A DNA stretch of 10,929 nt from assembly GCA_031288935.1 (NCBI GenBank), contig JAITQL010000110.1, positions 1-10,929 on the forward strand. Direction: 5' to 3'. The position numbers and the translations under genes are program-made. Position 1 is the stretch's first letter, and the number at the start of each line of letters is the position of its first letter. This document shows, in pieces, positions 203 through 10,929 of this stretch. The notes below the pieces were generated by a model, which did no database searches, was not told the DNA's origin, and was given only the letters and a program-made list of their open reading frames with translations. The stretch is from Tannerella sp. GTDB lineage: Bacteria > Bacteroidota > Bacteroidia > Bacteroidales > Tannerellaceae.

Positions 203-1132
203 ATGGAAACGAAGAAATTTTTTCCGGTTTACGTATCCAACTTGAAGCTCGACAATCTTGCGGGCTTGTGTACTGAAACGGTCGACGTCGCGGGGCCGAT
301 GGTGTCTTCGATAGAAAACCAGCTGCTGCAGGTGCGGTTCAATTCGTTGCAGACGAATACCGGCCTGTTGAAGTCGCTCATGAACCGTTCGCGCAAAAAC
401 GTCTTGACGTCGCATATCCATGTGCTGGACAAACGGGTCGGCGCCCTCTATTCCGATGTGAAGCGGACGTCGACGGCGGCCGAAAAGAGCAGCAATGCGA
501 CGACTGCCGCCGCGGGGTCGGCGCTGGTGCATGCGCTCAAACCGTTCTGGAAGGTGACGGCGGAACCGATGGCCAGCCAGCTGGCGCAGCTCGGCGAACT
601 GTTCCTGCGCGTGAACGGGAACCAGACGCTGCAGGCTGCCCTGGGCACGCTGGGACTGGGGGGCGTGTGGGAAGAACTGTCGGGCGTGAACGCCGAACTG
701 AACGCGCTCTACGACGAGCGGGTGGCCGAGGAAGCGGCTGAAGCGCCGTTGCCTGCCGCCACGAAGATGAAGGAAACGGTGGTCAGGGACTACGAGGGTT
801 TCTGCACCGTGACCGAGCAGCTGCTTGTTGCCCTGCCGTCGCCGCTGCTGGAACAGCTGTTTTACAGCATCGACGTGCTGCGTCACACGTACGCTCCGCA
901 TGCGAAGAAGGACCTCAGGCATGCCGTTACCGAGCCAATTGAACCGCAGACCCGTACCGGTCTGCCGCTGACGCCCCCCATCAAACTCTTCTACGAAGAC
1001 GTGCCGCTGGAACTGGGCAAGGACTACAACGTGACGTACGGCAACAACATCAACGCGGGCGAAGGCACCGTCACCAGCCACGGCAAGGGGAAATACACCG
1101 GCTCGCATACAACCACGTTTTACATCGTTTGA
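203..1132 (+). CDS. DUF6261 family protein with a C-terminal DYxVxYxNNxNAGxGT module
   Basis: This is a 309-residue protein of unknown function. Residues 1-240 resemble DUF6261, a Bacteroidetes family often present in several copies per genome: an N-terminal VSNLKLDNLAGL segment followed by long, probably helical stretches, including an Ala/Glu-rich run near 160-190. No signal peptide or membrane segment is visible, so a cytoplasmic location is inferred. The last 55 residues or so (255-309) are different: DYNVTYGNNINAGEGTVT at 274-291, then GKGKYTG (294-300) and TTTFYIV. This matches a beta-rich repeat that I know mainly from bacterial cell-surface proteins, so a domain fusion is likely. The ATG at 203 is chosen because it begins the conserved N-terminus and lies just after the duplicated leader. 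The gene stands alone. Immediately after its stop come AAAGATTCA iterons and a GC-rich hairpin. Family assignment is from recalled sequence pattern. Confidence 0.75.
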   Translation: METKKFFPVYVSNLKLDNLAGLCTETVDVAGPMVSSIENQLLQVRFNSLQTNTGLLKSLMNRSRKNVLTSHIHVLDKRVGALYSDVKRTSTAAEKSSNATTAAAGSALVHALKPFWKVTAEPMASQLAQLGELFLRVNGNQTLQAALGTLGLGGVWEELSGVNAELNALYDERVAEEAAEAPLPAATKMKETVVRDYEGFCTVTEQLLVALPSPLLEQLFYSIDVLRHTYAPHAKKDLRHAVTEPIEPQTRTGLPLTPPIKLFYEDVPLELGKDYNVTYGNNINAGEGTVTSHGKGKYTGSHTTTFYIV

Positions 1133-1322: not shown

Positions 1323-1517
1323 TTATGAAACTTCATATTCCACTTTGGTTGGATTTTCCGCCTGTGTGGAGGCATTCAGGACTTCGATGGCAACGATCCG
1401 GCCATCCGCAGAATAATCCAGTATGACTCCTTTTTTCTCTTCATCACTTTCAAAGACGATCCCGTCACTGAAAATAACAGAAAGGATGTCTTGCTCTCTA
1501 TCATATTTTACTTTCAT
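1323..1517 (-). CDS. DUF2283 domain-containing small protein
   Basis: This is a 64-residue protein matching the DUF2283 pattern along its whole length: MKVKYDREQDILSVIFSDG at 1-19, then a short acidic stretch, then GVILDYSADGRIVAIEVLNAS at about 30-50. The family forms a small all-beta fold, and its length here is typical, so the gene looks intact. DUF2283 genes often sit next to a DUF4258 gene, and the pair has been suggested to be toxin-antitoxin-like; no partner is visible on either side, so this one appears to be an orphan. No strong ribosome binding site precedes the start, which is usual for Bacteroidetes. Function is unknown. Confidence 0.85.
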   Translation of the reverse strand: MKVKYDREQDILSVIFSDGIVFESDEEKKGVILDYSADGRIVAIEVLNASTQAENPTKVEYEVS

Positions 1518-1885: not shown

Positions 1886-1996
1886 CTTTGAATCCTTGAA
1901 TTTTTGAATCCTTGAATTTTAAATTCTGCGGCATCTGCGTCGAAATCCCTTTCATCCGCGTGAAACGAATCTTTGAATCTTTGAATCTTTGAATTT
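1886..1996 (-). repeat. iterons and a CGTGAAACGAATC module next to the pgi stop
   Basis: On the minus strand, reading away from the pgi stop, AAAGATTCA units (1968-1996) lead into CGTTTCACGCGGATGAAAG (about 1951-1970), and further AAGGATTCA/AAAAATTCA units lie at 1886-1926. The iterons touch the TAA of pgi (1996-1998). The same module, iterons followed by CGTTTCACGC(G/A)GA, recurs at 10650-10680 after the DUF4465 gene, again in the direction of the gene it follows. Confidence 0.65.
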
Positions 1997-3339
1997 TACA
2001 GTCTTGCCTTGAGGGCTTCGCTTTCTTTTTCGTAGCCGGGTTTGTTCAGCAGGGCGAACATGTTCTTTTTGTACGCCTCCACGCCGGGCTGGTCGAACGG
2101 ATTGACGCCCGATACGTAGCCGCTGATGCCGCAAGCTTTTTCAAAGAAATAGAACAACTGACCGATGTACCAGGCGTTGACCCGGGGCAGGGTGATTTGT
2201 ATATTCGGCACGCCGCCGTCCATGTGCGCCAGCTGCGTGCCAAGTCCGGCCATCCTGTTGACTTCATCCACCCGTTTGCCGGCAAGGAAATTCAGCCCGT
2301 CCAGATCGGCTTCGTCCGCGGGAACGAGCAGCTCGTGATCCGGTGTTTCTACCGAAATCACGGTCTCGAAAATGCTGCGCTCGCCGTCCTGAATCCATTG
2401 TCCCATGGAATGAAGGTCGGTGGTGAAATCGACCGCGGCGGGGAAAATGCCCTTGTTGTCCTTGCCTTCGCTTTCGCCGTAGAGTTGCTTCCACCATTCG
2501 CCGATGTAGTGCAGTTTGGGATGGAAGCTGGCCAGGATTTCGATTTTCTTTCCGGATGCATACAGGGCGTTCCGCACGGCGGCGTAGAGCGCGGCGATGT
2601 TTTCGTCGAAAGGCGTTTCGGGGCCTGTCCGTTTTTCGATCGACGCTGCGCCGGCTACCAGCTGGCGGATGTCCAGTCCGGCGACGGCGACGGGCAGCAG
2701 TCCCACCGGCGTGAGTACGGAGAATCGTCCGCCGACATTGTCGGGAATGGCGAATGTCCGGTATCCCTCCTGCACAGCCAGCGTGCGGAGGGCGCCGCGC
2801 GTCCGGTCGGTGACGGCTACGATGCGGTGTCGGGCTTCTTCCTTGCCGACGGCCTCCTCGAGCTGTTTCTTCAGGATACGGAATGCCAGCGCCGGCTCGG
2901 TGGTGGTGCCGGATTTTGAAATGTTGACGATTCCGAAGGATTTTCCTTTCAGCAGTCCGGTCAGTTCGTAGAGATAATCCTCGCCGATGTTGTGCCCGGC
3001 ATGGAGCAGAAGGGGATTCGCGCGTTCGCCCTGCAGCCAGTCGAAACTGCTGTTCAGCGCTTCGGTCACGGCCTTTGTCCCCAGGTAGCTGCCGCCGATG
3101 CCGACCACGACCACGACTTCGCATCTGGCGCGCAGGATGGCCGCCGTGTCTTCAACGGCCTTCAGTTCGGCCTCCGTGATGGAAGACGGAAGATGCAGCC
3201 AGCCCAGAAAATCGCTTCCCGCACCGCTTCCGTCGTGCAGCGCTTCCATACCCCTTTTCACCGGCGCTTCAAGCGCACGGAACTGTTCCCGTGTGACGGC
3301 GTTCAACGCCTTGTCAATATTTAATCGAATTGTATTCAT
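1996..3339 (-). CDS. pgi: glucose-6-phosphate isomerase
   Basis: This enzyme interconverts glucose 6-phosphate and fructose 6-phosphate in glycolysis and gluconeogenesis, in the cytoplasm. The 447-residue length fits the short bacterial form (about 450 residues, Bacillus type) rather than the 550-residue E. coli form. Visible signatures are GIGGSYLG at 80-87, the sugar-phosphate loop [12 protein letters not shown] at 139-150, [11 protein letters not shown] (family signature 1) at 203-213, a Glu in the GESEGK segment at about 289-291 at the expected place of the catalytic acid, DLHSMGQW with His310, and [12 protein letters not shown] (signature 2) at 413-424 with the conserved Lys. It lies 28 bp downstream of lysS on the same strand, so co-transcription is likely. 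The start at 3339 gives the usual N-terminus. AAAGATTCA iterons begin at its stop codon. Confidence 0.97.
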
Positions 3340-3367
3340 ACTTTTGTTTTCTATTTAAATGATTCGG

Positions 3368-5119
3368 TTATCGGACGGCCGTGCTGTCTGTTACAGACCG
3401 TATCCAGTTTTCCACTTCCCGGGCGGCGGGATTTTCCAGTCCCAGCCCGTACTTCCTGTTGAGATCGAAAAGCGCCTGCCGTACCAGCTGCGGGTTGGCG
3501 CCGGAGAGCGATTCGACGGTGGCATAGCCGGCTTTTTGCAACACGGGCGCCCAGGCCTCGCCGATGCCGTGCGCCGCATACTTCTCCGGCGCGTCTTTCC
3601 GGGTCGCCTTCTCCGGACGCATCTGCGGGAAGAGCAGCACCTCCTGAATACTTTCCCGTCCGGTCAGAAACATCGTCAGGCGATCCATGCCGATGCCCAT
3701 GCCGCTCGTGGGAGGCATTCCGTATTCCAGCGCTCTGAGGAAATCCTCGTCGATGTACATCGCCTCGTCGTCCCCCTTTTCCGACAGGCGCAACTGTTCT
3801 TCGAAGCGTTTGCGCTGGTCGACGGGATCGTTCAGTTCCGAGTAGGCATTGGCTATTTCCTTGCCGTTGACCATCAACTCGAACCGTTCCGTCAGTTCGG
3901 GATGATTCCGGTGGCGCTTGGTGAGCGGACTCATCTCGACGGGATAGTCGGTGATGAACGTCGGCTGGATATACGCATGTTCGCACTTGTCGCCGAAGAT
4001 GGCGTCGATCAGCTTGCCCTTGCCCATCGTCCGGTCGTGTTCCACGCCGAGCCGGTCGCATACGCCGTGCAGTTCGTTTTCCTCCATGCCGGCGATGTCG
4101 ACACCCGTATGTTCCCGGATGGCGTCAATCATCGTCACCCGCCGGTAGGGCGGTTTGAAATCAATCTCCCGGTCGCCGGTTTTCACCTTCGTGTCGCCGA
4201 GTACGTCCATGCAGATCCGTTCGAGCATCTGTTCGGTAAAATCCATCATCCACCGGTAGTCCTTGTAGGCCACATAGATTTCCATGCACGTAAATTCCGG
4301 GTTGTGCGTGCGATCCATGCCCTCGTTGCGGAAGTTGCGGCTAAACTCGTAGACGCCTTCAAAGCCGCCGACAATGAGCCGTTTCAGGTAGAGTTCGTTG
4401 GCAATCCGCAGGTACAGCGGTATATCCAGCGCATTGTGATGCGTGGTGAACGGGCGTGCGGCGGCGCCTCCGGGAATCGTTTGCAGGACGGGCGTATCGA
4501 CTTCGGTGTATCCTCTTTCATTGAAGAAGGAACGCATGGAGTTGAAGATTTTCGTGCGCTTGAGGAAGATCTCCTTCACGTCGCCGTTCACCACCAGGTC
4601 TACGTACCGCTGGCGGTAACGCAGTTCCGGGTCGGTGAAGCCGTCGTACACGACGCCGTCTTTCTCCTTGACAACCGGCAACGGACGCAGGGACTTCGAC
4701 AGCACGGTCAGCGTTTGGGCGTGAACGGAGATTTCCCCCATCTGCGTGCGGAAGACAAAGCCCTGGATGCCGACGAAATCGCCGATGTCCAGCAGTTTCT
4801 TGAAGACGGTGTTGTACAGTTCGGCATTGCTGTTTGCGTCCTGACAAATGTCGTCGCGCGTGACATACACCTGGATACGTCCCGTAGCATCCTGCAGTTC
4901 CATGAAAGAAGCCTTTCCCATGATGCGGCGGCTCATGATGCGTCCGGCAACCGTTACCCGGCGCGGCTCGTCGCCGTCTCTGAAAGAAGTCTTGATTTCG
5001 CCGGCATATCCGTTGACGGCGTATTCTGCGGCGGGATAGGGGTCGATACCGGACTGGCGCAGTTGTTCGAGGCTGTTTCGCCGGATGATTTCCTGTTCAC
5101 TCAACTCTAATACATTCAT
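3368..5119 (-). CDS. lysS: lysyl-tRNA synthetase, class II
   Basis: This enzyme charges tRNA-Lys with lysine using ATP, in the cytoplasm. An OB-fold anticodon-binding domain spans about 55-150 ([18 protein letters not shown]). The class II catalytic core follows: motif 1 near 195-220 ([16 protein letters not shown]), motif 2 at 263-277 ([15 protein letters not shown]), and motif 3 at 471-481 ([10 protein letters not shown]). At 583 residues it is about 75 longer than the E. coli enzyme. The extra is a C-terminal tail at about 515-575 ([16 protein letters not shown], then [14 protein letters not shown]), which looks like a helix-hairpin-helix type domain. I recall longer LysS proteins of about 576 residues in Bacteroides, so the tail is probably normal for the order. 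The ATG at 5119 follows a Bacteroidetes-type promoter with a leader of about 20 nt. Confidence 0.97.
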
Positions 5120-5145
5120 TCTTTAGTTTTCTTTGAAATTCGCCG

Positions 5146-5179
5146 CAAAAGTACAAAAAATATACTTGGCAGAAACAAA
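5146..5179 (-). promoter_or_regulatory. lysS promoter, Bacteroidetes type
   Basis: On the minus strand TTTG (5176-5179) is followed, after 22 bp, by TACTTTTG (5146-5153), an exact match to the -7 consensus TAnnTTTG. The spacing is slightly longer than the usual 19-21 bp. Transcription would begin near 5139, about 20 nt before the lysS ATG. Confidence 0.6.
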
Positions 5180-5271
5180 CGGAGATGAAAACGGGCTAAT
5201 ATTTACGGCTAACGGGAGGGCACGGGAATGAATCCGCGGATCGCGGGAAGGGGATAACCGGAAAAATTGAC

Positions 5272-5279
5272 TATTTTTG
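5272..5279 (+). promoter_or_regulatory. probable hflX operon -7 element
   Basis: TATTTTTG matches TAnnTTTG and lies 24 bp before the TTG start of hflX, which would give a very short leader. No good TTTG is seen about 20 bp upstream, so the call rests on the -7 element and position alone. Confidence 0.45.
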
Positions 5280-5303
5280 CACCGGATATAATCAGGCAAT
5301 ACA

Positions 5304-6533
5304 TTGAAAGAATTTATCATTACGGAAGAACGTACGGAAAAAGCCGTTCTGGTCGGGTTGATCACGCCCGAACAAAACGAGAAGCAGGTCGGGGAATACC
5401 TGGACGAGCTGGCCTTCCTGGCCGAAACGGCCGGCATCAAACCGGTCAAACAGTTTTATCAGCGGCTGGACATGCCTAACTCCGTCACCTTTGTCGGTTC
5501 GGGAAAATTGCAGCAGATCAATGAATACGTCGTGGAAAACGAAATCGGAACGGTGATCTTCGACGACGAACTGTCCGCCAAACAGCTGCGCAACATAGAA
5601 AAGGTATTGAACGTGCATATTTCAGACCGCACCAATCTGATTCTTGACATCTTTGCCCGCCGGGCACAGACGGCACATGCCAAAACACAGGTCGAACTGG
5701 CGCAGTACCGTTACATGCTGCCCCGCCTGACGCGCCTCTGGACGCACCTGGAACGCCAGCGCGGCGGAATCAACATGCGCGGGCCGGGCGAGACGCAGCT
5801 GGAAACAGACCGCCGCATCATCCTCGACAAGATTGCCAAGCTGAAACGCGATCTTGTCGAAATAGACCGGCAAAAGTCCTCCCAGCGCAAAAACCGCGGC
5901 AAACTGGTGCGCGTCGCGCTGGTTGGCTATACCAACGTGGGCAAGTCGACGCTTATGACGCTGCTGAGCAAAAGCGAAGTCTTTGCGGAAAACAAGCTGT
6001 TTGCCACCCTGGATACGACCGTTCGCAAGGTGATCATTGAAAACCTGCCCTTCCTGCTTACCGACACGGTCGGGTTCATACGCAAGCTGCCCACCGAGCT
6101 GGTCGAATCCTTCAAGTCGACGCTGGACGAAGTGCGCGAGGCCGACCTGCTGCTGCACATCGTCGACATCTCGCACCCGACGTTTGAGGAACAGATCGAG
6201 GTGGTCAACAAGACGCTGGCCGAGATCGGATGCGAAGAAAAACCCGTCGTCATCCTCTTCAACAAGATCGACGCCTTCACGTTCGTTCCCAAGGACGAAG
6301 ACGACCTGACGCCGTGCGTGCGGGAGAATGTTTCGCTGGACGAGCTGAAAGAAACCTGGATGGCGAAACTGCCGGACAAGTGTATCTTTGTTTCGGCCAG
6401 GGAACGGCTCAACATCGACGCATTGAAAGAACTTCTCTACGAACGGGTGCGGGAGATTCACGTCCAGCGTTTCCCGTACAACGATTTCCTCTTTCAGTAT
6501 TATGGCGAAGATGACATGCAACTGCCGGAATAA
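5304..6533 (+). CDS. hflX: GTPase HflX (TTG start)
   Basis: HflX is a ribosome-associated GTPase that splits stalled 70S ribosomes, notably under heat stress. In the 409 residues, the HflX N-terminal domain covers about 15-120, and the family signature MRGPGETQLE is at 158-167 after a helical middle segment. The G domain has G1 GYTNVGKST (208-216), a switch I segment LFATLDTT (232-239), G3 DTVGF (254-258), G4 NKID (320-323) and G5 SARER (364-368). The TTG start is preferred for three reasons. An in-frame TAA at 5289-5291 excludes an upstream start. The first in-frame ATG is at about residue 57, inside the conserved domain. The N-terminus MKEFIITEERTEKAVLVGLI matches Bacteroidetes homologues as I remember them. 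It is the first gene of a tight operon with cdd and the NimA-like gene. Confidence 0.95.
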   Translation: MKEFIITEERTEKAVLVGLITPEQNEKQVGEYLDELAFLAETAGIKPVKQFYQRLDMPNSVTFVGSGKLQQINEYVVENEIGTVIFDDELSAKQLRNIEKVLNVHISDRTNLILDIFARRAQTAHAKTQVELAQYRYMLPRLTRLWTHLERQRGGINMRGPGETQLETDRRIILDKIAKLKRDLVEIDRQKSSQRKNRGKLVRVALVGYTNVGKSTLMTLLSKSEVFAENKLFATLDTTVRKVIIENLPFLLTDTVGFIRKLPTELVESFKSTLDEVREADLLLHIVDISHPTFEEQIEVVNKTLAEIGCEEKPVVILFNKIDAFTFVPKDEDDLTPCVRENVSLDELKETWMAKLPDKCIFVSARERLNIDALKELLYERVREIHVQRFPYNDFLFQYYGEDDMQLPE

Positions 6534-7019: not shown

Positions 7020-7502
7020 ATGCACGGAATGAAAACAATCGAACACAGTGACAGGGAAATCATGGAAGCCGTCATCCGCCGGTGCGACATTTGTTTTGTC
7101 GGGATGGCGGGCACGGACGGCATCCCGTATGTGTTGCCCATGAACTTCGGTTACGCCGGCGGAGTGATCTATCTGCATTCCGCACAGGAAGGCGGCAGCA
7201 TCACGCTGCTCCGCCAAAATCCGAACGTGTGCATCGCCTTCAATACCGAAAACGAACTTGTCTACCAGCATCCCGACATGGCATGCAGTTACCGGATGCG
7301 TTCCCGAAGCGTCATTGCCTGGGGAAAAGTCGTCTTTGAAAACGACTTCGACCGGAAAACGGAAGCGCTGAACATCCTGATGCGGCAATACTCGGACAAG
7401 ACGTTCCGCTATGCCCGGCCAGCGGTCGAAAATGTAAAAATCTGGCGGGTAACCGTCGAAAAAATGACCTGCAAGGAGTTCGGCGCTCCGCACAAACCTT
7501 GA
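7020..7502 (+). CDS. pyridoxamine 5'-phosphate oxidase family flavoprotein, NimA-like
   Basis: This 160-residue protein has the split-barrel FMN-binding fold of the pyridoxamine-phosphate-oxidase superfamily, in the branch that includes the Nim 5-nitroimidazole resistance proteins. Supporting segments are PYVLPMNFGY (36-45), IYLHSAQEGG (50-59) with a His in the usual flavin-pocket region, NPNVCIAF (67-74), the basic strand SYRMRSRSVIAWGKV (90-104), and the C-terminal IWRVTVEKMTCKE (141-153). Such proteins are common in Bacteroidales chromosomes and most are not proven drug-resistance genes; the natural substrate here cannot be told. A second in-frame ATG at 7029 (MKTIEHSDRE) is an equally reasonable start. 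It is the last gene of the hflX-cdd operon, and the 42-bp repeat array begins 16 bp after its stop. Confidence 0.85.
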   Translation: MHGMKTIEHSDREIMEAVIRRCDICFVGMAGTDGIPYVLPMNFGYAGGVIYLHSAQEGGSITLLRQNPNVCIAFNTENELVYQHPDMACSYRMRSRSVIAWGKVVFENDFDRKTEALNILMRQYSDKTFRYARPAVENVKIWRVTVEKMTCKEFGAPHKP

Positions 7503-7518: not shown

Positions 7519-7840
7519 GGCATTGTGAGCCTCACGAAAGCATACCGGCGGCGTCGGGAAGGCATTGTGAAGCTCACAAAGATCTGCCGACCGCGTCGGG
7601 AAGACATTGTGAAGCTCACAAAGATATGCCGACGGCGTCGGGAAGGTTTTGTGAGCCTCACGAAGGTATGCCGACGGCGTCGGGAAGGTTTTGTGAAGCT
7701 CACAAAGGTATGCCGACGGCGTCGGGAAGGTTTTGTGAGCCTCACAAGGGTATATCGACGGTGTCGGGAAGGGTTTTGTGAAGCTCACAAGGATATGCCA
7801 ACAACGTCGGGAAGGTTTTGTGAGCCTCATGAAGGTATGC
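7519..7840. repeat. 42-bp tandem repeat array, seven full units plus a partial eighth
   Basis: Units start at 7519, 7561, 7603, 7645, 7687, 7729, 7771 (43 bp) and 7814 (partial, to about 7840). Each unit contains TTGTGA-AGC-TCACAA or its variant GTGAG-C-CTCAC, then a linker, then the palindrome CCGAC-GGC-GTCGG, then GAAGG. From unit 3 to unit 8 the first palindrome alternates strictly between the AGC form (3, 5, 7) and the GCC form (4, 6, 8), which implies an 84-bp higher-order period. Divergence is greatest at the ends (units 1, 2, 6, 7). There are no unique spacers, so it is not CRISPR. Because 42 is a multiple of 3, several frames stay open across it; these are not taken as genes. RNA from either strand could form a chain of small hairpins. 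Confidence 0.95.
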
Positions 7841-7879
7841 TCTCCAACGGGAGTGGCCGCGCTTCATCTACTGCCGCCT

Positions 7880-7940
7880 TGAATCTTTGAATTTTTGAAT
7901 CTTTGAATTTCTCGAATTTCCCGAATTTCCCGAATCTTTT
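7880..7940 (-). repeat. TTGAATCTT/TCGAATTTCCC iterons upstream of the B12 regulon promoter
   Basis: TTGAATCTTTGAATTTTTGAA is followed by degenerate units CTCGAATTT and CCCGAATTT (twice). These are the AAAGATTCA iterons in reverse orientation, ending about 12 bp before the promoter -33 box at 7952. Confidence 0.65.
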
Positions 7941-7951
7941 GTTTGCAATAA

Positions 7952-7983
7952 TTTGTTGGATTCCGAATAAAGTGATTACTTTG
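7952..7983 (+). promoter_or_regulatory. promoter of the cobalamin-riboswitch operon
   Basis: TTTG (7952-7955), a 20-bp spacer and TTACTTTG (7976-7983) fit the Bacteroidetes sigma-ABfr pattern with one mismatch (T for A in the -7 box). Transcription would start near 7990, a few bases before the riboswitch P1 stem, which is the expected arrangement. Confidence 0.65.
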
Positions 7984-7994
7984 CGCCCGATTTC

Positions 7995-8208
7995 GGTTCC
8001 GTTGCATACATGCTGTGCGCGGATGAAAAGGGAATCAGGTGCAAATCCTGAACAGTCCCGCTGCTGTAAGCTCCGATCCGGTATGGAAATAGCCGGAAAA
8101 CGTTTCGGATGATACTCAAACCACTGCCCCGCATCCTTTCTTCGGAAAGGCGGAAGGGGCGGGAAGGCGATTCGAAACGGGGGAGCAAGTCAGAAGACCT
8201 GCCGGAAT
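7995..8208 (+). ncRNA. cobalamin (vitamin B12) riboswitch
   Basis: This RNA aptamer binds adenosylcobalamin or a related corrinoid and normally lowers expression of the gene behind it when B12 is plentiful. The conserved core is present: GGGAATCAGGTGCAAATCC from 8030, then ACAGTCCCGC and TGCTGTAAGC ending at 8071. The B12-box region is GTCAGAAGACCTGCC, ending at 8203. P1 can close by pairing GGTTCC (7995-8000) with GGAATC (8203-8208). A variable-domain hairpin CCTTTC-TTCG-GAAAGG (8135-8150) sits inside a GCCCC/GGGGC stem (8126-8130 and 8156-8160). It lies just after the promoter at 7952 and about 145 nt before the coding start at 8355. Exact ligand preference is not visible from the sequence. 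Confidence 0.95.
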
Positions 8209-8256
8209 CAGACGCTGAATAAAAAGCTTTCGTGGGATAAGGCTTGAGGCAAACCT

Positions 8257-8290
8257 GACATGGCGTATCCGTTGATTCCTGTCGTTTTTT
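8257..8290 (+). terminator. candidate riboswitch-controlled terminator
   Basis: GACATGG (8257-8263) can pair with CCTGTC (8278-8283) with one bulged base, and a small inner ATC/GAT stem may extend it. A GTTTTTT run (8284-8290) follows at once. Position between the aptamer and the coding region suggests a transcription-attenuation platform. The stem is short, and control at the ribosome binding site is an alternative. Confidence 0.4.
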
Positions 8291-8354
8291 CCTGAAGTAT
8301 GTTTCATTGATCGCAAAAGCACGTACGGTTCACATAATAAACAGGAAAAACGTT

Positions 8355-9524
8355 ATGTTACATTCGAGAAAACAAATGATTGTATTGGCCGGCCTCTGGT
8401 CGGCGCTGTGTCTTTCGGCGCAGCAGACATCGCCCTATATCAGCCGGGTCTATGACTATTGTCCGGCTCCGGGGCAGTTCATCAACGTGTCGCCGGAATA
8501 CGAACCCGGCGATACGCGGGACGACATCCTGCGCAAGGCGGAAGAGCTGCTTGCGGGCGAGGAAAGCAGCTTGGTCTCGCTGGGGGCTTACGGAGGGTAT
8601 GCGGTCTTCGGCTTTGATCACCCGGTGGTCAACGTGCCCGGTCAGGCGGACTTCACGGTGCCGGGCAACGTCTTCATCAACCCCGTTCCGGGAGCGATGT
8701 CCGAAAGCAGCGAGCCGGGGATCGTGGCGGTGTCGCGCGACGCGAACGGCAACGGACTGCCGGACGACGCATGGTACGAACTGGCCGGCAGCGACTACGA
8801 CGCGCCCGGAACGGTGCATCGCTACCGCATCACGTACTACCGGCCGGACGAACACAAAACACCCGTGCCGGATCCCGCCAATCCGGCGCTTGTGGATACG
8901 GCCTATATCCGGTGGACGGACAACCTGGGACGGGAGGGATATGTTTCCCGAAACTCGTTTCACCGGCAGCCGTACTATCCGCAGTGGGAGGAGGCCGACT
9001 CGCTCGTTTTTGAAGGCGCGCGCCTGGCCGACAACTACACGGTGGAAGGCGAGAACTACGTGCTTCACGCCTGCGACTGGGGGTATGCCGACAACAAGCC
9101 CAATGCCGATGCAGGGGCCGGTTTCAATATCGAACGGGCGGTGGATGCGGACGGACGGACGGTACACCTGCCCGAAATACATTTTATAAAGGTATACACG
9201 GCGGTGAACCAGTACTGCGGCTGGCTGGGCGAAAGTTCGACGGAAATCGGCGGTGCGGCGGACTTGCACCCGGATGCCGCAGGCACGGCCAACCGGGATT
9301 TGCAGGCAACATCGTCCGTGCGCATCCTGGAACAGCCGGTAAGAGACTGCCTGCGGATCGAATCGCCCGGACGGCAAACCGTGCGGGTCTTCAGTCCGGA
9401 CGGCGTCTGCCGGATGTCTTTCCCGGTGGAAAGCGGCCTGAATACCGTTCCGTGCAGTTCGCTGCCGAAAGGATTCCATATCCTTGTCACACGCGACCGG
9501 GCCATCAAATTCAGCAAACAATAA
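8355..9524 (+). CDS. secreted cell surface protein under B12 control, with T9SS-like C-terminus
   Basis: This 389-residue exported protein of unknown biochemical role belongs to a family annotated only as cell surface protein in Bacteroides, recognised from SRVYDYCPAPGQF (30-42), SLGAYGGYAVFGFDH (75-89), DANGNGLPDDAWYELAGS (129-146), WTDNLGREGYVSRNSFH (187-203), CDWGYADN (240-247) and FIKVYTAVNQYCGWLGE (277-293). DANGNGLPDD resembles a calcium-binding loop. Residues 1-22 (hydrophobic LWSALCLSA, then QQ) form a signal peptide. No lipobox follows, so it is probably not a lipoprotein. Residues about 323-389 look like a divergent T9SS type A sorting domain, without the usual YPNP. An in-frame ATG at 8307 would add 16 residues before the signal peptide, so 8355 is preferred. 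The riboswitch upstream implies expression when B12 is scarce, so a role in corrinoid capture at the surface is inferred. Confidence 0.85.
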   Translation: MLHSRKQMIVLAGLWSALCLSAQQTSPYISRVYDYCPAPGQFINVSPEYEPGDTRDDILRKAEELLAGEESSLVSLGAYGGYAVFGFDHPVVNVPGQADFTVPGNVFINPVPGAMSESSEPGIVAVSRDANGNGLPDDAWYELAGSDYDAPGTVHRYRITYYRPDEHKTPVPDPANPALVDTAYIRWTDNLGREGYVSRNSFHRQPYYPQWEEADSLVFEGARLADNYTVEGENYVLHACDWGYADNKPNADAGAGFNIERAVDADGRTVHLPEIHFIKVYTAVNQYCGWLGESSTEIGGAADLHPDAAGTANRDLQATSSVRILEQPVRDCLRIESPGRQTVRVFSPDGVCRMSFPVESGLNTVPCSSLPKGFHILVTRDRAIKFSKQ

Positions 9525-9567
9525 TATCGGTTACCTGATAGATAATTCCCGATTTATAAACTTAATA

Positions 9568-10632
9568 ATGAAGAGTAGTATGAAACAGAAAATTTTACTT
9601 TGGACATTGTGTATGGCTGCCATTGCGCAGCAACCGTTACCGGCGCAGCAGACCGTTACGCTGGATTTAAGCAGGCCGGTGGATCCGGTGGAGATCACGC
9701 TGGATGCGGAGAAGGGTTACTGGACGGACGCTTTCGGCGCCGCGCCGCTTGTGTTTGAACACTTCACCTTTTCGCACGCGGGCGGGACCGGCTACTGGTC
9801 GGGTTTTATCGTCGGCAGCAACGGCGACACGGAGGATTACGGAAGCCTGAACAGTACGCATACGGACGGCTGGCTGATCAACCAGTGGGGCAACATGGCC
9901 GGCGGAGGGATTCAAACCGGCAGCGACGGCAGCGTGATCAGGGACGGAGACGGGAAGGTGGCTACCGGAAAAGGCATTCCCTACCTGATCGCAAACGAGT
10001 TTGACGAATTTGCCATCACGTTCGACGGGGAATATGAAGCCGCAGGCGTGTATCTGAACAATCACCCGTGGCCGTTTTACAGCAATCTGTACGGCGACAG
10101 CTACGCCCGCGCGCTGGACAGGGAGGGCGATTATTACAAGGTGATCATCACCGGACAAAATGCGGAGGCGGAAGAGACGGGCAGCGTGGAACACGTCTTT
10201 GCCGAATATGTGGACGGCGCGCTGAAGCAGAGCCGCGACTGGGAACGGGTAGACCTGTCGTCTCTGGGAAAGGTCAGCCGGCTGTCGTTTCACTTGACCT
10301 CGACCGATGCGGGCGAATGGGGCATGAACACGCCCGGTTATTTCTGCCTGGACAAGTTGCAGGTGAAGACTTCGGGCACTGACGGAATCATCACGCTGCC
10401 CGCGGCAACGGCCGCCGTATATCCCAATCCCGCGGCAGACCGGTTGACCGTCAGCGGTACGTCCATCCGTCGGGTCACGGTATCCGACCTCGGCGGCCGG
10501 ACGGTCTGCCGGCTTGAAGCCGAGGGTCAGTCCCGGTTGACAATACCCGTCTCGCACTGGGGAAAAGGCGTCTATATCGTTCGTGTCACGGACGGGACAA
10601 GCACGTCTTCGCACAAGATCATCAAGCGGTAA
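9568..10632 (+). CDS. DUF4465 domain-containing secreted protein with T9SS type A sorting domain
   Basis: This 354-residue protein (350 if the ATG at 9580 is used) has a signal peptide KILLWTLCMAAIAQQ ending near AQQ. Positions below use the 9580 start. DUF4465 spans about 55-265: FEHFTFSHAGGTGYWSGF (59-76), GVYLNNHPWPFYSNLYGD (156-173), DYYKVIITG (184-192), WERVDLSSLG (221-230), LTSTDAGEWGMNTPGYFCLD (239-258). Residues about 278-350 are a T9SS type A sorting domain: AAVYPNPAADRLTVSG, then VTVSDLGGRTV, then GKGVYIVRVTDG and terminal KIIKR, so the protein should cross the outer membrane by type IX secretion. It starts 43 bp after the previous stop, in the same riboswitch-controlled unit. DUF4465 genes, as I recall, occur in B12-uptake loci of Bacteroidetes, which supports a corrinoid-related surface role. 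That role is inferred; the molecular function is not known from the sequence. Confidence 0.9.
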   Translation: MKSSMKQKILLWTLCMAAIAQQPLPAQQTVTLDLSRPVDPVEITLDAEKGYWTDAFGAAPLVFEHFTFSHAGGTGYWSGFIVGSNGDTEDYGSLNSTHTDGWLINQWGNMAGGGIQTGSDGSVIRDGDGKVATGKGIPYLIANEFDEFAITFDGEYEAAGVYLNNHPWPFYSNLYGDSYARALDREGDYYKVIITGQNAEAEETGSVEHVFAEYVDGALKQSRDWERVDLSSLGKVSRLSFHLTSTDAGEWGMNTPGYFCLDKLQVKTSGTDGIITLPAATAAVYPNPAADRLTVSGTSIRRVTVSDLGGRTVCRLEAEGQSRLTIPVSHWGKGVYIVRVTDGTSTSSHKIIKR

Positions 10633-10649
10633 ATCCCCCCCGCACGCAA

Positions 10650-10735
10650 AGATTTAAAGATTCGTTTCACGCAGATTGAATGGATTTCAACGCGGATTTT
10701 AATGACCTTTCATCTGCGGAATCTGCGTGAAACAA
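10650..10735 (+). repeat. inverted repeat GTTTCACGCAGATT/AATCTGCGTGAAAC after the DUF4465 gene
   Basis: The 14-base arm GTTTCACGCAGATT (from about 10665) is exactly complementary to AATCTGCGTGAAAC (ending about 10733), with about 40 bases between. Iteron-like AAAGATTTAAAGATTC lies just before it. It is related to the module beside pgi at 1951-1996. It may act as a 3' hairpin for the operon and is also a dispersed repeat. Confidence 0.7.
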
Positions 10736-10736
10736 C

Positions 10737-10769
10737 GGAGGCACGGAAAATATACTTCTCCGTGCCTCC
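10737..10769 (+). terminator. GC-rich hairpin, copy 3
   Basis: GGAGGCACGG (10737-10746) pairs perfectly with CCGTGCCTCC (10760-10769) over a 13-nt AT-rich loop, followed by TGTTTATT. The arms match the hairpins at 1172 and 1262 almost exactly (GGAGGC(G/A)CGG). It lies about 100 bp after the DUF4465 stop and may end the B12 operon transcript. Confidence 0.6.
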
Positions 10770-10798
10770 TGTTTATTGTCCGAACCTTGATTTGCCCG

Positions 10799-10929
10799 AT
10801 GAAAGGATTTCGTTACCTGCTCTTTAAGTCTGCCGATAAATGGACGGTAAAACAAAAGCAAAGAGCCAAGTTGCTTTTTGAACTTTATCCCGATATTAAA
10901 AAAGCCTGTTCCCTGACACATTCCCTGCG
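10799..10929 (+). pseudogene. 5'-truncated ISL3/ISAon1-like transposase fragment, continues past the right edge
   Basis: The frame from 10799 reads MKGFRYLLFKSADKWT, then KQRAKLLFELYPDIKKA and SLTHSL, to the last base. This matches the internal part of DDE transposases of the ISL3 / ISAon1 type found in Bacteroidetes, where a segment like RYLLFKS..KWT..Q..RA..LF..YPD..KAY.LT follows the catalytic core. The upstream part of a normal transposase is missing: the frame runs back only to a stop at 10703, through the hairpin repeats, so the 5' end has been lost and the ATG is probably not a true start. Similarity may begin slightly earlier, near 10780. The segment is more AT-rich than the genes to its left, as expected for acquired DNA. 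Whether the rest is intact cannot be seen here. Confidence 0.7.

Follow-up and report, generated by a model that had tools for sequence, protein, structure and literature searches.

Why should a cobalamin riboswitch stand before two genes for secreted proteins and no receptor gene? This question is raised by the right-hand end of contig JAITQL010000110.1 from Tannerella sp. (assembly GCA_031288935.1), which was analysed over its whole length of 10,929 bp and is referred to here as the window (contig C141 in our numbering). The genome is fragmented (1.85 Mb and 55.7% complete), and the closest relatives with a name are 'Tannerella sp.' genomes assembled from metagenomes. The genus set used below comprises 41 genomes (G numbers), with L numbers given to single loci and P numbers to listed homologues. 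We consider it probable that the locus is an operon for vitamin B12 capture, belonging to a Tannerella-like bacterium bearing the type IX secretion system (T9SS), and that its two capture proteins are exported by this route and work together with the receptor BtuB and its partner BtuG.

The riboswitch and the two proteins encoded after it

The complete cobalamin riboswitch described in a first-pass annotation of this DNA is borne out by the RF00174 model, which scores 94.7 bits (gathering threshold 31.5) and extends the element 18 nt upstream of the start given earlier (7995). This aptamer is the sole cobalamin riboswitch found in the available genome sequence, and is separated from gene 1 by 134 nt and gene 1 from gene 2 by 55 nt. 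From what is typical of the riboswitch family, control would be B12-dependent with expression when B12 is scarce. The leader may include the expression platform, and its T-run is retained in all seven aligned leaders. We considered a terminator 3' of the aptamer and set it aside: the T-run is conserved, yet the seven leaders fold differently and shuffled sequences fold equally well, with the fold of positions 8150–8357 being no better than shuffles (z 0.49), so that a terminator is not demonstrated. A promoter scan gave nothing useful.

Gene 1 is placed at an ATG (the mechanical open reading frame, or ORF, starts at TTG 8307), and its product is matched by no Pfam or NCBIfam model at E 1. It aligns with 8blw_B (BtuG1, residues 393–660, which appear to be the H-domain named in the passages available from PMC10404256) with E values of 8.4e-72 by phmmer and 3.6e-27 by Foldseek, and with 7biz_A (BtuH2) with 2e-42 and 1.1e-21, respectively. 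BtuG1 and BtuH2 structures also occupy ranks 1–3 amongst the fold matches to its AlphaFold2 model (predicted local distance difference test, pLDDT, 86.5). The polar B12 contacts reported for BtuH2 in the excerpts seen of PMC8941943 are Q333, N399, H476, Y510, W511 and W577, and in the phmmer alignment four of these six are identical in gene 1 (Q333, N399, H476 and W577 correspond to Q41, N105, H203 and W290), W511 is replaced by Tyr and Y510 is without a counterpart. Across 33 aligned rows, gene 1 included, Q41 and N105 are found in every row, H203 in 32 and W290 in 28. This homology and the retained contact residues suggest that the gene 1 protein binds cobamides.

Gene 2 (ATG 9580, with an alternative ATG at 9571) matches PF14717, the family of BtuJ1 and BtuJ2, with 106 bits against a gathering score of 25. 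The fold matches to its AlphaFold2 model (pLDDT 89.7) are led at ranks 1–9 by DUF4465 structures, B12-bound BtuJ1 included, with Foldseek E values of about 1e-12 for 9hmu and BtuJ1 (9qpm and 9fct). The conserved hydrogen-bonding residues of BtuJ1 are given in the sections available of PMC12751083 as Y146, N241, T242 and Y245; the last three correspond to the N, T and Y of the gene 2 MNTPGY motif, and the Y146 position holds Trp. The binding-loop Tyr is Y254 in gene 2, and Tyr is found there in 31/33 aligned rows. On the same grounds as for gene 1, the gene 2 protein may be expected to bind cobamides.

It should be noted that the first-pass annotation had named BtuG as an example of such surface proteins, and that the families here are instead BtuH-type and BtuJ (DUF4465). 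Gene 1 as a BtuG is ruled out as it has no propeller domain, and PF16819, the DUF5074-type propeller of BtuG, is absent from both genes and present in the separate btuG gene. Gene 1 is like BtuH2 and the H-domain of BtuG1 from Bacteroides thetaiotaomicron in B12-binding domain, fold and the four polar contacts. Unlike these, it consists of a plain signal peptide, the B12 domain and a T9SS-type tail, in this order, and the lipoprotein anchor of the BtuH family is missing from it, as there is no lipobox. Gene 2 is like BtuJ1 and BtuJ2 in domain, fold and MNTP-x-Y loop, and the BtuJ1 and BtuJ2 loci of B. thetaiotaomicron are riboswitch-regulated too (PMC13398666, from the text available). However, BtuJ1 and BtuJ2 are lipoproteins (PMC12751083, same excerpts), while gene 2 has a T9SS type A domain instead. 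According to the available text of PMC13398666, over 70% of DUF4465 proteins are predicted lipoproteins, and B12 binding is newly shown for six distant DUF4465 proteins (the abstract counts eight members).

Features of the riboswitch operon and the contig end, in window positions
Feature	Position	Strand	Basis
Cobalamin riboswitch aptamer RF00174, complete	7977..8220	+	94.7 bits, E 4.7e-23, model 1-189
Leader, possible expression platform	8221..8354	+	T-run at about 8286-8291
Gene 1, predicted secreted BtuH-type B12-binding protein with divergent T9SS-type tail (ATG 8355, stop 9524)	8355..9524	+	Homology, predicted fold
Gene 1 BtuH-type B12-binding domain, residues 24-305	8424..9269	+	Alignment; contact residues retained
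Gene 1 T9SS type A-like C-terminal sorting domain, residues 306-389	9270..9521	+	DUF4465-tail profile, E 3.6e-7
Gene 2, predicted secreted DUF4465 (BtuJ-type) protein with T9SS tail (stop 10632)	9580..10632	+	PF14717 106 bits, PF18962 47.1 bits
Gene 2 DUF4465 domain including MNTPGY motif of B12-binding loop	9790..10356	+	PF14717, alignment, fold
Gene 2 T9SS type A sorting domain	10417..10629	+	TIGR04183, 51 bits in genome scan
Contig end with inverted repeats and ISL3 transposase fragment	10633..10929		Contig stops at 10929

Sorting domains, export machinery and anchor types

Both N-termini are signal-peptide-like and without a lipobox when judged by eye and pattern, with predicted helices at residues 2–19 of gene 1 and 3–15 of gene 2, in agreement with the signal peptides noted in the first-pass annotation. 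Its description of the C-termini, a clear T9SS-type tail in gene 2 and a divergent one in gene 1, holds as well. The gene 2 tail is over both curated cut-offs (47.1 bits for PF18962; 47.7 bits for TIGR04183, cut-off 23), and the gene 1 tail is recognised by a profile made from 30 tails of the other protein family, DUF4465, and by a profile of 47 BtuH-type tails (E 3.6e-7 and 3.6e-19, respectively, with the set size fixed at 1000). Amongst 500 shuffled gene 1 tails searched at E 10, the DUF4465-tail profile lists none and the BtuH-tail profile lists four, with a best E value of 1.4. The predicted models of both tails have a sorting-domain-like fold resembling the C-terminal domain (CTD) of mirolase from Tannerella forsythia (8qb1). 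The gene 2 tail matches it with probability 1.00 (template modelling, TM, score 0.69 on target; root-mean-square deviation 2.5; E 6.1e-4; rank 38), as does the gene 1 tail (probability 1.00; TM 0.62 on target; E 0.012; rank 40). This likeness is not exclusive, as the DUF3244 proteins 4g5a and 3sd2 also resemble the gene 2 tail (TM 0.57 and 0.75). Mirolase, which we take to be a T9SS cargo, is a protease, whereas the cargo here is a vitamin-binding domain. The gene 1 sorting domain may be functional, and type IX export of both proteins is suggested by sequence and predicted fold.

The precomputed annotation includes PF18962 in 50 of the best 120 of 481 gene 2 homologues and in 48 of the best 120 of 3033 gene 1 homologues, and since NCBI already labels many homologues as 'T9SS type A sorting domain-containing protein', such tails are not new in themselves. 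In the open-access literature, which most subscription papers lie outside, we found no paper on T9SS export of BtuH- or BtuJ-type proteins, the passages available from PMC9723704 included. Neither 'T9SS' nor 'sorting' occurs in the main text of PMC13398666, and T9SS and BtuG are not linked in the passages available from PMC12578637.

The genome encodes 17 TIGR04183-like tails (E 0.01), seven of which are over the cut-off, and carries SprA in two contig pieces (model positions 1–1312 and 1318–2318) and the N-terminus of PorV, which is under the cut-off and cut by a contig end. Thus the T9SS machinery, the absence of which would have spoken against the first-pass annotation, is found in part. 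PorU and SprA were detected in 36/41 and 39/41 of the genus genomes, respectively.

The ways in which BtuH-type proteins may be anchored were surveyed in a set of 80 loci that a single scan of genome contigs had yielded; these share short words with gene 1 and do not form a census. They hold 85 BtuH-domain ORFs, 83 of which are complete (those in L055 and L058 are cut at the ends). A lipobox without a C-terminal tail (<35 residues) was found in 23, and 60 are tailed; by loose motif, 40 of the latter end in a T9SS-like way, 16 in a dockerin-like way and four in neither. The loose lipobox pattern also matches three of the 60 tailed proteins (L019, L038 and L077), and a second loose pattern matched 4/9 outgroup BtuH-type proteins (L019, L021, L024 and L030); all were judged false by eye, having an early Cys with further signal-peptide-like sequence after it. 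When three T9SS-like tails were checked with Pfam, L012 was over the cut-off, L041 was weak (18.9 vs 27 bits) and L024 had no match. On a quick tree the anchor trait requires at least seven changes, three of them forced by well-supported branches, with long branches being a caveat. We note that all four dockerin-like tails checked (L044, L048, L052 and L063) were over the Pfam cut-off (Dockerin_1 PF00404, 30–33 bits vs 22.9); these come from Bacteroidales and Prevotellaceae metagenome-assembled genomes, of which three carry rumen-type RUG names, and a Dockerin_1 ending is possibly a third way of anchoring BtuH-type proteins.

Receptor genes and gene order in relatives

The first-pass annotation stated that no btuB follows the two genes, and this is correct for the window but could be assessed for just the 297 bp between gene 2 and the contig end. 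The search for btuB and btuG which it proposed finds both elsewhere in the genome, adjacent on contig C258 (btuB at 3452–5503 and btuG at 2334–3428, both on the minus strand; Pfam Plug and DUF5074), with 76% and 72% identity to the L024 pair, respectively. A BtuB–BtuG pair therefore exists in this genome, but outside the operon and without a detected riboswitch. The genome further contains fragments of two B12-dependent enzymes, MetH and methylmalonyl-CoA mutase. The gene directly before btuB is nagB (L101 3581–4390, minus strand), which adjoins btuB in G000 and G018 and lies some 750 bp away in G012, and in G034 a serpin gene is found before the riboswitch-free btuB (L102 44–1324, plus strand).

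A hidden riboswitch before this btuB was looked for and rejected, with none found at E 1 on L101, L097, L099, L102, L103, L104 or L109; the search reached 1450–1500 bp upstream of btuB, except in L104, where a contig end limited it to 592 bp. In a scan of 12 btuB loci, a riboswitch was found before btuB in five (G009, G015, G019, G027 and G033) and none in six (G000, G012, G018, G034, G028 and G026:C177); the L109 btuB, cut by a contig end, was left out of the count. A riboswitch also precedes btuB by position in G017 and G020. The six riboswitch-free btuB genes form one clade with 100/100 support in a tree of 19 rows, and a single change in riboswitch state suffices when 15/19 rows are scored. 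Of the unscored rows (L021, L023, L024 and L030), the first three were later found with an upstream riboswitch and L030 showed none, so this could be a second change. The receptor of this bacterium may lie outside B12 control.

In the six nearest loci, all named Tannerella sp. (L005–L010), a riboswitch directly precedes the gene 1–gene 2 pair (that of L006 is cut by the contig start), with 67–73% identity for gene 1 and 62–69% for gene 2; three other loci so named (L018, L032 and L034) are of other types. Homologues of the pair are also listed for the cultured Dysgonomonas sp. 520 (P0034 and P0140), on contigs of equal length. Eight outgroup loci have the order riboswitch–btuB–btuG–BtuH-type gene (L012, L013, L014, L018, L019, L021, L023 and L024, with one additional gene before btuB in L023), and L030 has this order without a detected riboswitch. 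In L013 a DUF4465–T9SS gene comes after the BtuH-type gene, and in L014 the next gene agrees in start and length with P0055, a protein bearing DUF4465 and T9SS domains. Given the gene order in these eight outgroup loci, the receptor-free operon looks derived: the receptor genes would no longer be in the riboswitch operon of the Tannerella clade, which holds the capture genes alone. A further locus from Marinilabiliaceae (L015 9536–12616) consists of a riboswitch, a BtuH-type gene and a DUF4465–Big_2–T9SS gene, and has no receptor gene. As the state seen in the window occurs in L005–L010 and separately in L015, the absence of receptor genes may have arisen at least twice.

The operon ends at repeats and a transposase remnant, as had been described, with two inverted repeats of 14 nt at 10664–10769 (100% and 93% complementary) lying between gene 2 and an ISL3-type transposase fragment at 10799–10927 (PF01610, 23.1 bits vs a cut-off of 23). 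A 42-bp tandem repeat of 7.5 copies is found immediately 5' of the operon at 7523–7840, and 8-bp TTGAATCT-type repeats at 7879–7908. Glucose-6-phosphate isomerase and lysyl-tRNA synthetase genes are located near the B12 operon in the window (1996–5119) and in L014 (13100–16937, recognised there by protein starts alone). The window also encodes a DUF6261 protein (203–1132, plus strand; 61.1 bits) and a small DUF2283 protein (1326–1517, minus strand; 62.3 bits), both of unknown function, and at 7020–7502 a flavin-type PPOX protein resembling NimABCDEF nitroimidazole reductases (52.3 bits, far under the curated cut-off of 260).

Possible roles of the operon

The sequence of events we propose begins when B12 is scarce and the riboswitch would allow genes 1 and 2 to be expressed. 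The Sec signal peptides would take both proteins across the inner membrane, and the C-terminal sorting domains would direct them to type IX secretion for passage through the outer membrane. On the surface, or after release, the BtuH-type and BtuJ-type domains would bind cobamides and hand these to BtuB and its lipoprotein partner BtuG, encoded on the other contig. The first-pass annotation had suggested that B12-capturing proteins are displayed through the T9SS rather than as lipoproteins, and the riboswitch, the tails and the kinship to known capture proteins agree with this. It does not extend to BtuG: a lipoprotein signal was found by pattern in 10/12 BtuG proteins checked, that of this genome included (L014 was a near miss and L099 was left out), and the T9SS would consequently replace lipoprotein display for the accessory capture proteins alone.

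Several observations weigh against B12 capture by type IX-exported proteins acting with a receptor outside riboswitch control. The gene 1 tail is missed by the curated Pfam and NCBIfam models and its fold match is weak, and no PorU sortase was detected in the genome, which is 56% complete. SprA is found in 27/29 genomes with tailed proteins (a group which includes the four dockerin-type loci L031, L044, L048 and L052) and in 17/21 with lipoprotein forms (50/74 loci tested), so that having a T9SS does not predict a tail and was ruled out as a predictor. DUF4465 was detected in just 9/41 genus genomes. Five of these have a btuB without a detected riboswitch (G000, G012, G018, G026 and G028) and in G021 btuB is cut by a contig end; in G009 btuB has a riboswitch, and in G031 and G037 there is no btuB match at E 1e-20. 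In addition, G026 retains a second btuB behind a riboswitch.

Both proteins might instead be released to the medium, or carried on vesicles, and act in a siderophore-like manner for B12 and not be kept on the producing cell. There is no lipid anchor signal on either gene, and extracellular vesicles of B. thetaiotaomicron carry BtuJ1 and BtuJ2, which bind cobalamin there and deliver it (PMC12751083, in the portion available). We think this rather unlikely. In most cases a type A sorting domain is replaced by an anionic lipopolysaccharide (A-LPS) anchor, which attaches the protein to the cell, and our data are compatible with both fates. That the operon is a decaying remnant, in which the pair is disappearing after deletion of btuB and btuG and invasion by transposons, would fit with the ISL3 fragment right after gene 2 and with DUF4465 not being found in 32/41 genus genomes; it is nonetheless very improbable when both frames are intact and full length, the aptamer retains its high score, and L005–L010 keep the riboswitch and both genes at the identities given above. 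Both proteins are known from sequence alone and could bind some other ligand, with the riboswitch as a chance or relic neighbour, but the chance of this seems slight indeed given the retained contact residues, B12 binding by the six distant DUF4465 proteins (PMC13398666, as above), and riboswitch linkage in L005–L010 and the eight outgroup loci.

Descriptions of surface B12 capture in the Bacteroidota come from Bacteroides, in which the components are lipoproteins whose genes accompany that of the receptor. If B12 capture by type IX-exported proteins is correct, other gut and environmental Bacteroidota would deliver B12-binding domains through a different export machine, and these domains might be released or held in a different way. 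A wider and more tentative proposal, to which we would give somewhat less than even chances, is that in T9SS-bearing Bacteroidota the accessory proteins of BtuH and BtuJ type make up an additional capture layer, exported by type IX secretion and separate from the lipoprotein BtuG, and that in the Tannerella clade the exported layer is tuned by B12 starvation and BtuB–BtuG is no longer under B12 control. The locus may be a natural case in which receptor and capture proteins are controlled separately, so that the question of which limits B12 uptake would become testable.

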